A stretch of 64,000 bases of DNA, taken from NCBI RefSeq assembly GCF_007993735.1, contig NZ_CP042453.1:248001-312000 (forward strand). The letters are read 5' to 3'. The position numbers and the translations under genes were made by a program. Of this stretch, positions 2,997-8,325 are shown piece after piece. The notes under the pieces are model-generated. The model was not told the DNA's origin. It made no database searches and saw only the letters and a program-made list of their open reading frames with translations. Each line of letters starts with the position of its first letter. The stretch's first letter is position 1. This stretch comes from Arenimonas daejeonensis. GTDB lineage: Bacteria; Pseudomonadota; Gammaproteobacteria; Xanthomonadales; Xanthomonadaceae.

Positions 2997-3983
2997 GTGG
3001 AACGAATCCAGCTTGCCTTGATCGGTGCCGGGCGCATGGGCCAGGTACACGGGCCGAACGCAGCCCGGCATCCGGGGCTGCAGCTCAGATATGTCGTGGA
3101 TCCGCGGCCCGAGGCGGCCCGGGCGATGGCCGAACGCTTCGGCGCCCAGGTCGCCGGGCTTGAGCAGGCCCTGGCCGACCCGGCGGTGGGCGGCGTGCTG
3201 GTCTGCAGCTCGACCGACCAGCACCTGGGTCACGCCCTGGCGGCGGTGGCCGCGGGCAAGACGGTCTTCTGCGAGAAGCCCATCGACCTGGACCTGGCCA
3301 AGGTGCGCGCCGCGGAATCCAGGTTCACCGGCGCCCGTTTCCTGCTCGGTTTCAACCGGCGTTTCGACCCGCATTTCCAGGCGCTGAAGGCGAAGCTGGA
3401 CAGCGGCGCGATCGGCCAGCTCGAAAGCCTGCACCTGGTGAACCACGACCCGGCCGCTCCGCCGCCGGGTTTCGTGCCGACCAGCGGCGGGCTGTTCAAG
3501 GACTTCACCATCCACGACCTGGACCTGGCGCGCTGGCTGCTGGGCGAGGAGCCGGTGTCGGTGTACAGCACGGCCAGTTGCCTGGTGGACCCGGAGATCG
3601 GGCGTCAGGGCGACGTGGACACGGCGCGCACGGTGCTGCGCACCGCTTCGGGCCGACTGTGCGTGATCTCGAACACGCGCCGCAGCGGTTACGGCTACGA
3701 CCAGCGCATCGAGGCCTTCGGCTCGGCCGGCATGGCCACCGCCGGCAACGTCGCGCCCGACACGCTGCAGGTGCTGACCGAAGCCGGCGTCACCGGCACG
3801 CCGATCCACCCGGGTTTCGCCACGCGTTACGCGCACGCCTACCGCGCCCAGATCGAACACTTCGCCGACGTGCTGCACGGCCGCGCGCAGCCGCGCGTGG
3901 GTTACGCCGACGGCGTCGCAGCGCTGGTGCTGGCCGAAGCCTGCGACCGTTCGCTGCGCAGTGGCGCGGCTGTCGAACCCTGA
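2997..3983 (+). CDS. iolG: Inositol 2-dehydrogenase, Gfo/Idh/MocA family (first copy)
   Basis: NAD-dependent oxidation of myo-inositol to scyllo-inosose, the entry step of inositol catabolism in the cytoplasm. The 328-residue product starts at GTG. It has an N-terminal Rossmann motif (LIGAGRMGQVH), the family EKP motif (E93-K94-P95) and the active-site Asp169/His173 in the segment GGLFKDFTIHDLDLARWLLG. Length and motifs are normal and nothing is broken. The start follows a weak ribosome-binding site; an exact IolR-like dyad lies about 30 bp upstream. A second iolG follows 10 bp later. The substrate could also be another inositol isomer or a sugar, but neighbouring iolC supports inositol. Confidence 0.88.
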   Translation: MERIQLALIGAGRMGQVHGPNAARHPGLQLRYVVDPRPEAARAMAERFGAQVAGLEQALADPAVGGVLVCSSTDQHLGHALAAVAAGKTVFCEKPIDLDLAKVRAAESRFTGARFLLGFNRRFDPHFQALKAKLDSGAIGQLESLHLVNHDPAAPPPGFVPTSGGLFKDFTIHDLDLARWLLGEEPVSVYSTASCLVDPEIGRQGDVDTARTVLRTASGRLCVISNTRRSGYGYDQRIEAFGSAGMATAGNVAPDTLQVLTEAGVTGTPIHPGFATRYAHAYRAQIEHFADVLHGRAQPRVGYADGVAALVLAEACDRSLRSGAAVEP

Positions 3984-3993
3984 GGAAGAAGAA

Positions 3994-4971
3994 ATGAAAA
4001 AGGTCGTCATCATCGGCGCCGGCCGCATCGGCCGGATCCACGCCCGCAACGCCGCCCTGCACCCGCGCCTGCAGTTGGCCGGCGTCGTGGACCCGGTCGC
4101 CGATTCCGCGCAGTCGCTGGCGCAGGAGCACGGCTGCACCGTGACCACGCTGGAGGCGGCGCTTGCCGATCCCGGCATCGCCGGCGTGATCATCGCCAGC
4201 TCCACCGACACGCACCTGGACTACAGCCTGCGTGCCGCGGCCGCGGGCAAGGCGATCTTCTGCGAGAAGCCCATCGACCAGGACCTGGCGCGGGCGCGCA
4301 CGGCCGGAGCGCCGTTGGCGATGGCGCGGATGTTGCTGGCGTTCAACCGGCGGTTCGATCCGCATTTCCAGGCGCTGAAGGCGCAGCTCGACAGCGGTGC
4401 GATCGGCACGCTGGAGTCGCTGCAGATCACGTCGAACGATCCGTCGCCACCGCCGCCGTCGTACGTGGCGGTGTCGGGCGGGCTGTTCAAGGACATGGCG
4501 ATCCACGATTTCGACATGGCACGCTGGCTGTTGGGCGAGGAGCCGGTGACGGTGTACGCGGCCGGTAGCTGTCTGGTGGATCCGGAGATCGGCAAGCTGG
4601 GCGACATCGACACGGCGCGCACGGTGCTGACGACTGCCAGTGGGCGGCTTTGCGTGATCTCCAACAGCCGGCGTTCGGGTTTCGGTTATGACCAGCGCAT
4701 CGAGGCGTATGCGTCGGCCGGCATGGTGCGGGCGGACAATGTGGTGGAATCCAGTGTGCAGGTCTGGAGCGAGGGCGGCGCCGCCGCGGACCGTTTCCAG
4801 AATTTCTTCCTCGACCGTTACGCGGAAGCCTATCGCCGGGAAATGGACCACTTCGCCGACATGCTCGACGGAAAGCCCGCTTCCGTTGGTTACGCCGATG
4901 GTGTCGCGGCCCTGGCCCTTGCGGAAGCCGCGGCCGAGTCCCTGCGCACCGGGCAGCCTGTGAAGCTCTGA
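3994..4971 (+). CDS. iolG: Inositol 2-dehydrogenase, Gfo/Idh/MocA family (second copy)
   Basis: A second oxidoreductase of the same family, 325 residues. The ATG at 3994 follows a strong purine-rich ribosome-binding site (GAGGAAGAAG), so it is preferred over upstream in-frame codons. Motifs match the first copy: VIIGAGRIGRIHARN, CEKPIDQDLARA and GGLFKDMAIHDFDMARWLLG with Asp and His in the same places. The pair is closely similar throughout, including LLGEEPV and SCLVDPEIG, which indicates tandem duplication. The copies may differ in preference for myo-, scyllo- or chiro-inositol; the sequence does not decide this. It is probably co-transcribed with the first copy. Confidence 0.87.
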   Translation: MKKVVIIGAGRIGRIHARNAALHPRLQLAGVVDPVADSAQSLAQEHGCTVTTLEAALADPGIAGVIIASSTDTHLDYSLRAAAAGKAIFCEKPIDQDLARARTAGAPLAMARMLLAFNRRFDPHFQALKAQLDSGAIGTLESLQITSNDPSPPPPSYVAVSGGLFKDMAIHDFDMARWLLGEEPVTVYAAGSCLVDPEIGKLGDIDTARTVLTTASGRLCVISNSRRSGFGYDQRIEAYASAGMVRADNVVESSVQVWSEGGAAADRFQNFFLDRYAEAYRREMDHFADMLDGKPASVGYADGVAALALAEAAAESLRTGQPVKL

Positions 4972-5015
4972 TTTCATCAGAACGGCCGGCGTCGGGGAGC
5001 TGGCGCCGGCAAGTA

Positions 5016-5087
5016 CCGGGGAAGTGAAGGGCTCTTTTCGCTCAGTGAAGCCTTTTATTTCGCGAAAAGAGCCCTTCACTTCCCCGG
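5016..5087. repeat. Perfect 26-bp stem hairpin with conserved 20-nt loop (A)
   Basis: The left stem at 5016-5041 pairs perfectly with 5062-5087. The 20-nt loop at 5042-5061 reads TCAGTGAAGCCTTTTATTTC. The same loop, base for base, occurs in hairpin B on the other strand with a different stem. There is no T-tract, so this is not a standard terminator, although it lies 45 bp after iolG2 and could stabilise the iolG mRNA end. Confidence 0.9.
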
Positions 5088-5282
5088 CACTTCCGGTACG
5101 TATCGTCCGGGTGGCTGATTGGAGTTCCTGCGCGGCATCGGCGCTTTGCTTGCGCGTGTGGGTTCGCGGGCTTCCGCATGTGCGATTTTTCTTGCGCCTT
5201 GTCGTTTGCTAATGCGCTCGCGTCCCTTGTCGGCAGCGCGCCTCCCGTGGGGCGCGTTCCCTGAACGCGTCCGGTGCCATTT
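5016..5282 (+). repeat. Inverted repeat arm 1 of an intergenic hairpin-bearing repeat
   Basis: The 853-bp gap between iolG2 and the receptor gene has no convincing gene; it is filled by two head-to-head copies of one repeat. This arm starts with a 72-nt hairpin and ends at the block TGAACGCGTCCGGTGCCATTT. It includes a 33-nt block (5145-5177) that is perfectly repeated in inverse at 5565-5597, and a small CGCGTTC/GAACGCG hairpin at 5253-5269. Short open frames here run through on both strands and look like by-products of the repeat. Confidence 0.85.
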
Positions 5283-5454
5283 CTGCGAACTGGAAAGAAG
5301 TGCTCGCCGCTACCGCGGCGAAGGGCAAGAGCGAGGGCAGCGCGGCAGCGGCAGCGGCAACGCCAATGAAAGCAAATCGTCAACTGAAACAGCTACTGAA
5401 GCCCCGCTTCTGCTCTACGCCGCGCAGCGGCGGGTACTCGCAACAACCTCGCCA

Positions 5455-5717
5455 AAATGGCACCGGACGCGTTCAGGGGAACGCGCCCCACGATAGGCCA
5501 CGCAGCCCCGATTTTGAACGTGCTCCCACTTAGCAAACCGCGTGGCGCAAGAAAGATCTCGCACGCGGAAGCCCGCGAACCCACACGCGCAAGCAAAACG
5601 CCTATACCACCAGGAACTCCCCTCACAGAACCGCGCGGGTGGAACCGGCAGTGCCGTGGGAGCGACACCCTCTTTCTGCGAAATAAAAGGCTTCACTGAG
5701 CAGAAAGAGGGTGTCGC
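5455..5717 (-). repeat. Inverted repeat arm 2 of the intergenic hairpin-bearing repeat
   Basis: Reverse-complement copy of arm 1, with nearly the same length (263 versus 267 nt) and the same order of modules: hairpin with conserved loop, a divergent stretch, the 33-nt identical block at 5565-5597, then the TGAACGCGTCCGGTGCCATTT block with one inserted base nearby. The 5283-5454 spacer between the arms shows no gene. Confidence 0.85.
5662..5717. repeat. 18-bp stem hairpin with conserved 20-nt loop (B)
   Basis: The stem 5662-5679 pairs with 5700-5717. The loop at 5680-5699 is the exact reverse complement of the loop in hairpin A. The stem sequence (GCGACACCCTCTTTCTGC) differs from that of A yet remains perfectly paired, which is compensatory change. 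Confidence 0.9.
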
Positions 5718-5751
5718 CCCGCGGTGCTGATGGCGCCAGATCAACACGCAC

Positions 5752-5778
5752 AAAAAAACGGCGACCCTGAGGGCCGCC
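5752..5778 (-). terminator. Rho-independent terminator of the receptor gene
   Basis: On the minus strand an 8-bp stem (GGCGGCCC/GGGTCGCC, one G-U pair) with a TCA loop is followed directly by seven T residues. It lies 47 bp past the stop codon of the TonB-dependent receptor. Confidence 0.85.
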
Positions 5779-5824
5779 GCTTTCGGGACCAGGCTCCGGA
5801 CCATCCCCGGAGCCGGCTTGCAAC

Positions 5825-8218
5825 TCAGAACACGATGCGGAACGTCAACGTCCAGCGCTGCGAAGAGGATTCCCGCTCCACCTCGAACGCATCCACGTCG
5901 TAGGCCGCCTGGTTGGCCAGGATCTCCGCACCGTTGTCGCCGTCGAAACCCGCCTCCGCCTGCTCACTGTCGGCATCCAGCAGATTGTTGCCGGTCAGAC
6001 GCAACACCATGTTCTCGCCGATGCGCTTCTCCAGGAAGAACTCCAGATTGCCGTCGTACAACTGGCTCTCGATCTCCCCGTACGTGACGAACCGCGACTC
6101 ACCCTGCTTCTGGTAACTCACGCCGAAACTGGTCTCCCAGCTCGGGATGTTCTGCGTGATGCCGACGTTGTAGACATAGGTCGGCTGGAAATCGATCGCA
6201 ATGTCCCGGCCGGTGGCCGGGTCGGCGCGGTCGGACCACAGCCGCGTGTAGTTCGCGAACACACCCGTCTCCTCCCAGCCGAACATGTCGAGCGGCGTGG
6301 ACAGGTCGAACTCGAATCCATGCGTCTTGGCGTCGCCGATGTTCTCGTAGCTGTACAGACCGCCCGGGAAGTCGTCCGGATCCAGGCCGATGGTGTCCAC
6401 CGGCTCGCCCGTGTTCACCAGCGCGATCAGGTCGCTGATGTCGCGGTAGAACACGTTGAAGCCCATCACGCCCTGCCGCCCGAACCGGCGCTCGTAGCCG
6501 ACGTCGAAGCCCAGCGAGGTCTCGAACTCGACCTCCGGGTTGCCGATGGTCACGTCCTCGTCACCCGGCGATTCCAGCGTGTAGGCCGGGATCAGCTGGT
6601 CGATGCTGGGACGGCGCACCGTGCGCGCGACGCTGAAGCGGAACTGGTCCTGCTCGGTCATCTTCCACAGCAGGTGCACCGACGGGTTGAGGTGGAACTC
6701 GCTGCCGTCGGCGCTGCCGGCTTCGGTGGAATCCAGCACGCCGCCTTCGGACAGGTCGGTGACGTACTGCTGCTCGGTGTCGGTGCTTTCCGCGCGGATG
6801 CCGGTTTCCAGTTCTACAGTCTCGGACAGGCCCCACTTGATGCGCGCGTAACCGTCCAGGCGGTCTTCCTGGTAGTTGAAGCGGCCGTCGCTGGTGGAAT
6901 AGTCCGGCTCGCCCAGGTCGTCCTCGACCAGCAGGCGGAAGTCGCGCTCCTTCCACTTCGCCGCCACGCCGACCTTCAGCTCGGCGCCCTGCGGCGCCCA
7001 CGTCGGCAGGCTGCGGGTGTAGGAACCGCCGACCAGCCACTCGCTGTCGTCGGCGTCGATGTCCTCGCGGGAGACCAGGTTGTCGTTGGTCTCCTCGTAG
7101 CTCAGCTCGACGCTGTCGTCGGTGAAGTCGTTGTAGCTCAGGTCCAGCGAAAAGCTCGAAACGTCGCTGAGGTAATGGTCGAACACCGCCGAGAAGCCGT
7201 AGCTGTCCTGGTTGAAGTCGGCGTCCTGGAACTCCAGCTCCGGGTTGTCCAGGTCCAGGCCACCGACGCTGCCGTCGCCCTCGTAGATCCAGGTGTCCTG
7301 GTGCTCGTCGCGCGAGGTGGTCAGCAGGAAGCCGTCCACGCGCAGGGTGGAATCGTCCGAGATGCGCCAGGTCACGTCGCCGTTGAAGGACAGGTCGCGG
7401 GTGTCGCGGCTGTCCATCTCCTCGACGCGCTCGACCGCCGAGGACTGCCCGGGATTGTCCCACTGCTCCAGGCCACGCCCGATGCCGCCGCGGGCGACTT
7501 CGTCGTCGAAGCCGACCGAGTCGCTCTCGAATACCTCCTCGACCACTTCCTTGTTGTTGTAGCGCTCCTGCGCGTCCACGGTGAGCGAGTAGAAGACCGT
7601 CTCGTCCTTGTTGCTGCCCGAGCTCGAGGCGGCGAAACTGCCGCGGCTCTTGCCCTGGTCCATGTCGTGGGTGACGCCCATGCGCAGGATCACGCCCGGC
7701 GGCAGGCTGGCGCCGTCCTTGAGGATGATGTTGATGGTGCCGCCGACACCCTGGCTGTCGATGTCGGCACCGGGCGAACGGATGATCTCGATGCGGTCGA
7801 CGATCTCGGCCGGGATGCGGTCCACGAACACCGTGCGGTCGTTGCCTGCACCGGGGATCGGGCGGCCATTCACCAGCACCTGGGTGTAACCCTGGCCGAG
7901 GCCACGCAACTGCGGCGAGTCGGACTCGCCGATGTCGCTGGTGAAGGCCACGCCGGGCACGCGCCGAAGCTGGTCGCCCACCGACACCGGCTCGAATTCC
8001 TCGAAGAACTGCTGGTCGTACACCAGCGACGGCGAGGTGGTCTCGGTGCGGTTGCGGTACTGGATGGTGCCGCTGACCACGATCTCCTCGAGCTGGGTGA
8101 TGTCTTCCTCCCCCTCGGGTGTCGTCGCCGCCGGCGTTTCCTGCGCCATCGCCAGGCCGGCGGAAAGCAGGTGGCTGCTGATGAGTGCCGCTAATACGTT
8201 GCGCTTGAACTTACGCAT
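5825..8218 (-). CDS. TonB-dependent outer-membrane receptor, probable inositol-phosphate/phytate uptake
   Basis: Outer-membrane beta-barrel transporter driven by TonB, 797 residues from the ATG at 8218 (GGGAGG lies about 14 bases upstream). A signal peptide covers about residues 1-26 (MRKFKRNVLAALISSHLLSAGLAMA). A TonB-box-like stretch (ITQLEEIVVSGT) and a plug domain follow (QLRRVPGVAFTSDI; VNGRPIPGAGND; RIEIIRSPGADIDSQG). The barrel ends in LTFRIVF, with the terminal Phe of BAM substrates. Start sites further upstream lie in the promoter region and lack a signal. The divergent phytase 225 bp away, and the iol genes beyond, suggest an inositol-phosphate cargo. That substrate is inference; siderophore or sugar receptors look alike. 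Confidence 0.93.
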   Translation of the reverse strand: MRKFKRNVLAALISSHLLSAGLAMAQETPAATTPEGEEDITQLEEIVVSGTIQYRNRTETTSPSLVYDQQFFEEFEPVSVGDQLRRVPGVAFTSDIGESDSPQLRGLGQGYTQVLVNGRPIPGAGNDRTVFVDRIPAEIVDRIEIIRSPGADIDSQGVGGTINIILKDGASLPPGVILRMGVTHDMDQGKSRGSFAASSSGSNKDETVFYSLTVDAQERYNNKEVVEEVFESDSVGFDDEVARGGIGRGLEQWDNPGQSSAVERVEEMDSRDTRDLSFNGDVTWRISDDSTLRVDGFLLTTSRDEHQDTWIYEGDGSVGGLDLDNPELEFQDADFNQDSYGFSAVFDHYLSDVSSFSLDLSYNDFTDDSVELSYEETNDNLVSREDIDADDSEWLVGGSYTRSLPTWAPQGAELKVGVAAKWKERDFRLLVEDDLGEPDYSTSDGRFNYQEDRLDGYARIKWGLSETVELETGIRAESTDTEQQYVTDLSEGGVLDSTEAGSADGSEFHLNPSVHLLWKMTEQDQFRFSVARTVRRPSIDQLIPAYTLESPGDEDVTIGNPEVEFETSLGFDVGYERRFGRQGVMGFNVFYRDISDLIALVNTGEPVDTIGLDPDDFPGGLYSYENIGDAKTHGFEFDLSTPLDMFGWEETGVFANYTRLWSDRADPATGRDIAIDFQPTYVYNVGITQNIPSWETSFGVSYQKQGESRFVTYGEIESQLYDGNLEFFLEKRIGENMVLRLTGNNLLDADSEQAEAGFDGDNGAEILANQAAYDVDAFEVERESSSQRWTLTFRIVF

Positions 8219-8301
8219 GGCCCAGTCCCTCCCGAGGACTCCCCACTGGATCGGCTGTACCACCTCGCAGGGGTGGCTGACCCGCAGATTACGAACAAAG
8301 A

Positions 8302-8325
8302 TTCCAATTTGCAACCAACTTGGAA
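8302..8325. promoter_or_regulatory. Dyad in the receptor/phytase divergent promoter region
   Basis: The inverted repeat TTCCAA-N12-TTGGAA sits in an AT-rich patch between the two divergent genes. It is a candidate shared operator or -35/-10 region. No known regulator motif was matched. Confidence 0.3.

Follow-up and report, generated by a model that had tools for sequence, protein, structure and literature searches.

Facing hairpins with variable, paired stems as the ends of a probable MITE-like element behind genes in Arenimonas

Introduction

What are the two long hairpins that face each other in the gap separating the genes for a GFO/IDH/MocA oxidoreductase and a TonB-dependent receptor in Arenimonas daejeonensis, sharing one loop while their stems differ in sequence and still pair perfectly? 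They lie in a 64,000-nt stretch of contig NZ_CP042453.1 (positions 248,001 to 312,000), referred to below as the window and numbered from its first base. The initial annotation of this DNA, made from the letters alone, offered several readings, among them a mobile palindromic element moved by a REP-type or single-strand transposase and a structured RNA, and held that compensatory stem change around a fixed loop implies selection on structure. Here, the anatomy of the locus, its copies in the genome and in relatives, the pairing of the hairpins and the siting of the copies are described, and the possible explanations are weighed.

Results

Anatomy of the element in the window

The two hairpins form the ends of a quasi-palindromic element of ~0.7 kb, made of two diverged half-modules in facing orientation (Table 1). 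Its outer limits are approximate, having been placed by eye where similarity among the copies in the same genome fades. An inverted-repeat scan of the window recovered exactly the two facing perfect hairpins of 26 and 18 bp with identical 20-nt loops that had been described from the letters, and the 33-nt block said to be shared between the halves matched its reverse complement at 33 of 33 positions. The facing repeat pair was likewise confirmed, while its unit length, given earlier as ~265 nt, came to ~310 nt per half. Additional inverted matches joined 5134-5212 to 5530-5608 and 5259-5311 to 5426-5478.

Table 1. Positions of the element, its parts and its neighbours in the window
Feature	Position	Strand	Remarks
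Whole element	5000..5742	.	CTGGCGCC ... GGCGCCAGATC; quasi-palindromic, non-coding
Left end hairpin	5003..5099	+	96-position covariance model match, 103.5 bits
Left hairpin, outer arm	5016..5041	+	26 bp perfect stem
Left tip	5042..5061	+	TCAGTGAAGCCTTTTATTTC, 20 nt
Left hairpin, inner arm	5062..5087	+	
33-nt block, left copy	5145..5177	+	inverted counterpart at 5565-5597
Inner small hairpin, left half	5253..5269	+	CGCGTTC/GAACGCG
Inner small hairpin, right half	5468..5485	-	counterpart of 5253..5269
33-nt block, right copy	5565..5597	-	
Right end hairpin	5642..5736	-	96-position covariance model match, 90.4 bits
Right hairpin, inner arm	5662..5679	-	18 bp perfect stem
Right tip	5680..5699	-	on the + strand, reverse complement of the left tip
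Right hairpin, outer arm	5700..5717	-	
Terminator-like hairpin and T tract of right-hand gene	5752..5779	-	adjoins the element
Left neighbour, GFO/IDH/MocA oxidoreductase (iolG2 of the initial annotation)	3961..4971	+	points at the element
Right neighbour, TonB-dependent receptor	5825..8314	-	points at the element

When arms had to reach 16 bp and loops to span 3-30 nt, the only perfect inverted repeats in the window were those at 5016-5087 and 5662-5717, and none of that size arose in 10 random sequences that followed a first-order model of the window. When the required arm length was lowered to 12 bp, the window had five, compared with one each in 2 of the 10 random sequences. Folding as RNA of the strand read from outside inwards gave z-scores of -10.5 (left) and -8.1 (right), with 0 of 200 shuffles as good. 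Each end hairpin continues beyond a conserved mismatch, as captured by a covariance model of 96 positions built from 38 hairpins, both window hairpins being among those 38 rows. Because a 6-bp apical helix, closed on a TC/TC internal mismatch, can form within the 20-nt loop, the loop is termed the tip. The inner small hairpin occurs in relatives as paired variants, for example GCGTCC/GGACGC, among the alignment rows listed.

The codon model made no coding call overlapping the element. Mechanical ORFs of more than 100 codons run inside or across it (5042-5383, 5119-5496 and 5415-5804) and could be annotated as hypothetical proteins. On its 5' side, the tandem overlapping frames 2997-3983 and 3961-4971 are similar in sequence, perhaps through duplication.

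Copies in the genome and in relatives

With up to 2 mismatches allowed, the tip was present at 20 places in the A. daejeonensis genome, and a reversed-pattern control gave 0. The covariance model gave 42 matches in the same genome, corresponding to 21 hairpins each seen on both strands. These comprised ten facing pairs and one solo hairpin, making eleven copies. The solo hairpin consists of two outer ends, as if the interior had been lost. By eye, among the alignment rows listed, each of the ten paired elements seems to combine one type-a half with one type-b half, in either order. As first noticed for the two window hairpins, the stems of the other copies were different in sequence yet paired. 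The check proposed in the initial annotation was thus positive, the loop having proved to recur beyond this locus.

Matches to the covariance model were obtained in 13 of 27 genomes of the genus, counting one uninspected match in genome G021, in 20 of 297 genomes of the family (ten of them within the genus) and in 16 of 398 genomes of the order (five within the genus). Those outside the genus were rejected as a different repeat, with GTCATCCCCGC- or GTCATTCCCGC-type arms, after inspection by eye of 20 matches covering all 18 positive genomes. As DNA, the half-module was found in only 2 of the 297 family genomes, A. daejeonensis itself and G026. Exact matches to the loop in named records came from Arenimonas, plus one record titled Rhizobium. 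A hairpin in the latter, the metagenome-assembled genome at locus L022, is the same as that on contig 17 of G014, and the title looks like that of a misnamed bin. The exact loop had no match in viral contigs, nor had the whole element in phage and plasmid records.

Full-text searches of open-licence PMC papers returned no literature on this repeat family, and the available excerpts of an Arenimonas genome paper mention, of repeats, only CRISPR (PMC4572611). The family appears to be genus-specific and new, a known kind of element with an unusual end structure. What is unusual is how faithfully the fold is kept.

Pairing, stem length and tip of the end hairpins

In the 38-row alignment, 26 of the 34 model pairs vary on both sides. 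Cells changed on both sides numbered 186, compared with a shuffled mean of 50.3, and 0 of 500 shuffles reached 186; the shuffles ignore relatedness, so these cell counts are not independent events. For further pair types, 91 of 500 shuffles attained the observed number, which places this measure within chance. Sliding the 3' partners by 1-3 columns lowered pairing from 92.9% to 42-50%.

A larger set comprised 83 hairpins from 12 genomes, three matches in G226 having been removed from the 86 listed. G014 contributed only 3, since many of its matches were contig-end pieces. In a separate set of 74 element halves, 7 that were too short or too diverged were removed before folding. Among the 71 distinct non-solo hairpins, base pairs 1-22 from the tip were Watson-Crick at 1525 of 1562 cells (97.6%), even with 63 different outer-arm sequences. 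Exchange of arms between hairpins gave a mean pairing of 67% and a maximum of 71% (1000 draws). The length from tip to base anchor was 28/28 nt in 74 of the 79 hairpins, among the 83, that could be measured. None of the 7 solo hairpins was perfect over 22 bp, compared with 41 of the 71 non-solo hairpins.

The tip takes the form TC-N-GTGAAGCCTTTTAT-N'-TC, with small variants. The TC..TC was kept in 62 of the 63 tips of 19-20 nt, and the N-N' pair beside it was A-T in 46, C-G in 12 and G-C in 5. When the outside-inwards strand was folded as RNA, the six-pair apical helix closed on the TC/TC mismatch. Below the stem, at bp 27, an outer A stood opposite an inner C in 57 of 71 hairpins. The palindrome thus keeps certain mismatches, TC/TC and A/C, in place while the pairs around them covary and are replaced.

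Wobble counts differed between stem and tip. In stem bp 1-22, A.C was seen 19 times and G.T 3 times, while at tip pairs 7/14 and 8/13 there were 15 G.T and 3 A.C. The two imbalances point to opposite strands, so that no RNA strand can be named. The two tips of an element are reverse complementary on one strand, and loop-loop kissing between the ends was considered and is not claimed. Loops within an element were barely more alike than those of shuffled partners from the same genome (sum 16 versus 24.0, fraction 0.075), and the loop variants in copies e1, e4 and e7 of A. daejeonensis occur without compensation at the opposite end.

Siting of the copies and comparison between species

The elements lie preferentially at gene 3' ends. 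Gene calls came from a codon model whose training set was 15 long frames of the window, and some of them were low-scoring. Of 87 neighbouring genes so called, 69 are oriented towards the element (loci L102 and L103 left out). Of the 31 complete elements, 16 lie between convergent genes, 15 between co-directional ones and 0 between divergent ones. A strict script placed a terminator at 23 of 83 ends; it missed obvious cases, so no terminator rate is claimed. At some ends in L118 and L123, the terminal bases GGATCTGGCGCC are doubled in tandem, as if insertion had been repeated at one place.

At a given site, the element could be present in one genome and missing from another. Downstream of secF, for which up to 450-960 bases were read where available, hairpins were present at 6 of 26 loci, absent from 19 and unreadable at 1. 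The positive genomes were G000, G026, G009, G017 (a solo), and G012 and G014, both at or near contig ends; in G014 the contig is cut within the hairpin. At the G026 site, the gene beyond belongs to the inositol monophosphatase family. Downstream of groEL, a hairpin within 300 bases was seen only in A. daejeonensis, among 24 genomes inspected (L221 and L222 left out). Copy e5 of A. daejeonensis and a copy in G011 adjoin what is apparently the same terminator, with different ends, and several further sites have common neighbours between species.

Two copies could be compared with orthologues. Between e9 and its G026 orthologue, identity was 80/80 in the tip plus tip-proximal stem, 42/64 in the variable stem and 468/618 in the interior. 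For e10, it was 34/40 in the tip, 40/40 in the tip-proximal stem, 47/64 in the variable stem and 393/550 in the interior, and the centre of this pair looks inverted. At the secF site common to A. daejeonensis and G026 (L133:3270-3973 versus L085:2437-3145), the centre appears inverted, as recombination between facing halves would produce.

ISL3-type ends and duplications in relatives

In G005, G009, G011, G012, G014 and other genomes, many element ends read GGTTCTTCTCCCAAGTC and abut A or T tracts. With 2 mismatches allowed, this motif was found 10, 20, 8 and 29 times in G005, G009, G011 and G014, respectively, and its reversed control 0, 0, 0 and 4 times. It often lies at contig ends. In G009 and G014, many contigs break within ~100 bases of an ISL3-type end motif, and short-read assemblies therefore probably undercount the elements. 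An ISL3-type end leads into other interiors at L237, L260 and L264, so that one end may be common to several MITE families of the genus.

In G001, G004 and G007, the same ends bound both sides of 1311-1312-bp ISL3 elements, which carry an open transposase frame (PF01610; 5.9e-69 for the G007 frame) and duplications matching at 8 of 8 positions in 3 of 3 cases. Among six full-domain ISL3 matches, these three had both ends, two at contig ends had one, and that in G010 had none. A search of four ISL3 loci with the covariance model did not find the end hairpin. Seven hairpin-bearing elements have ISL3-type ends on both sides, two further pairings (the long one at L101, and L107) having been judged spurious and left out. 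Their 8-bp flanks match at 8, 8, 7, 7, 6, 6 and 5 of 8 positions; as A/T tracts make partial matches easy, most weight falls on L100, with AACAAAAA at 8/8. When direct repeats of at least 8 nt flanking the 31 complete elements were sought blindly, 4 turned up; shuffles gave 1.2 on average and 6 at most, so the result was not significant.

At the 11 copies in A. daejeonensis, ISL3 ends were not seen, and the longest adjoining direct repeat was 6 nt. As to an ISL3 partner, this genome gave only a partial profile match of 23.1 bits (cut-off 23), in a desaturase-like gene. The anatomy supports, for the relatives only, a probable cross-mobilisation by ISL3. With neither ISL3 ends nor 8-bp duplications nor a full transposase seen in A. 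daejeonensis, other species may have captured the ISL3 ends secondarily.

Discussion

The window pair probably, at roughly 0.6, represents both ends of a single copy of a MITE-like element that is specific to the genus, non-coding and non-autonomous, and that settles behind genes, often beside intrinsic terminators. The family is present in many copies with paired variable stems, a fixed stem length, a conserved tip and a preference for gene 3' ends; in some relatives, copies bear ISL3-type inverted repeats and 8-bp flanking duplications. Under this MITE-like reading, the end hairpin would be what a protein recognises, with the tip as the signal, the 26-bp stem as a spacer and the letters of the stem irrelevant. 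Recognition would take place on extruded or single-stranded DNA during transposition, or possibly on RNA in the 3' UTRs of the neighbouring genes. The fold would persist despite turnover of its stem pairs, through selection and probably through template-switch copying from arm to arm as well. Copies that bear ISL3 ends in relatives would be moved in trans by an ISL3 transposase. A narrower reading, which we regard as unlikely, is that the end hairpin is a structure-read signal, a conserved tip held 26 bp from a conserved base with the stem letters immaterial, and that the host or another mobiliser reads the fold itself as DNA or RNA. This is suggested by hairpins kept at orthologous sites in genomes with no visible ISL3 ends or transposase.

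Whether the stems are under selection at all depends on how their pairing is maintained. The initial claim that compensatory change implies selection on structure was too strong, because template switching between neighbouring arms can generate compensatory changes in one event, as the available part of PMC8794818 describes. Such quasipalindrome correction would keep inverted repeats perfect, leaving the stems unselected and only the tip conserved. It would agree with the rarity of intermediates (37 non-Watson-Crick cells in 1562), with a block of five adjacent base pairs by which the orthologous e9 copies differ in both arms at once, and with a mirrored one-base shortening in e6 of A. daejeonensis. 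Template switching alone does not, however, readily account for mismatches that persist in the palindrome at TC/TC and at bp 27, with covarying pairs flanking them on both sides, or for a fixed stem length. All 7 solos, joined from two unlike arms, also retain mismatches, which suggests that correction is not fast; the solos may, however, be young and mismatched from the start. As the sole source of stem pairing, template switching is possible and somewhat unlikely. Pairing may be kept by selection or by template-switch copying, and the conserved tip mismatches favour selection at the tip. Together with the rigid length, they support the part of the initial claim that concerned the tip and the fold. 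A domesticated RNA element, carried as a hairpin in the 3' UTR of convergent read-through transcripts, where it would block antisense read-through, stabilise the 3' end or serve as an RNase III site, appears quite unlikely. The orientation of neighbouring genes would suit it; incoming transcription meets the same strand at both ends, and folding of that strand gives an apical helix with G-U pairs. Tip variants mostly stay paired, with 15 G-U against 3 A.C, and the e9 orthologues are identical in tip and tip-proximal stem while their interiors have diverged. The stem mismatches nevertheless favour the opposite strand, the tips differ in the second orthologous pair and, at 4 loci, no Rfam family reached its gathering score, a search of Rfam 15 giving sub-threshold matches only, mostly to microRNA-type hairpins. 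Some sites are common to species, but the groEL site is not, and of 25 readable secF loci 6 are occupied.

The mobile palindromic element proposed initially remains the best reading of the locus, whereas the REP-type or single-strand transposase named with it gained no backing, with 0 matches to the hairpin model in 20 Y1 loci, most read with ~1.5 kb per side. These 20 were examined out of 53 Y1 matches listed. That the element belongs to a REP/REPIN or TIR family dependent on a tyrosine (Y1/HUH) transposase is very unlikely, even though Y1 genes occur in 21 of 27 genus genomes, and the inverted hairpin pairs, the intergenic siting at gene 3' ends and the apparent lack of target duplication in A. 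daejeonensis resemble REP dimers and TIRtrons as portrayed in excerpts of PMC3733652. Among the coordinates listed, no Y1 gene and hairpin lay within 5 kb of each other, and the hairpins near 7 of the 20 Y1 loci (one weak) have other sequences. Stem and loop sizes are also unlike those of REPs, and relatives carry ISL3 ends. The Y1 transposase loci L145, L149, L151, L157, L158 and L162 have their own, mutually different hairpins, like the Stenotrophomonas TIRtrons of PMC3733652.

Some copies in relatives resemble ISL3-family MITEs in their GGTTCTTC[TA]CCCAA ends and 8-bp A/T-rich duplications, in insertion into terminator A/T tracts with no coding call, and in sharing ends with ISL3 elements that have an open transposase frame; the A. 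daejeonensis copies differ in that neither ISL3 ends nor 8-bp duplications were seen at them. REP dimers, REPINs and CGTC REPs are, from what the consulted text of PMC3733652 reports, likewise palindromic, dispersed, intergenic and sited behind genes, often as inverted pairs with complementary stem changes. CGTC REPs have stems of 8-9 bp and loops of 4-5 nt (same partial source), whereas the element has a 26-bp stem with a 20-nt tip, outside the short-stem GTAG/CGTC-tag definition, and half-modules of ~300 nt. Unlike the situation for GTAG-type REPs, no RAYT gene flanked by the repeat was found, the hairpin model having no match in the 20 Y1 loci. TIRtrons, such as those of Stenotrophomonas, have long, partly self-complementary terminal repeats that are also dispersed (PMC3733652, in part), and the element likewise has a long self-complementary end structure and dispersed copies. 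It differs in that no Y1 transposase was found between copies of the repeat at the 20 genus Y1 loci inspected, which have other hairpins or none. The element would work like a MITE; where it sits and how its halves pair in inverted orientation recall REP dimers and TIR families, but it appears to depart from them in the size and transposase-linkage features tested.

Integron attC sites are hairpins recognised by structure, with variable stems. The element is similar in having a structured hairpin with a variable stem, and differs in that attC core motifs were not apparent in it by eye.

For the genus, these data describe repeats that are sited preferentially at gene 3' ends, some copies carrying the ends of a known insertion-sequence family and others not. 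Its dozens of stem variants around one tip amount to a natural experiment on the source of compensatory stem changes, where selection acting via unpaired intermediates and one-step template-switch copying are the long-standing alternatives. The family supplies its own contrast, in solos joined from unlike arms with mismatches and in orthologous pairs.
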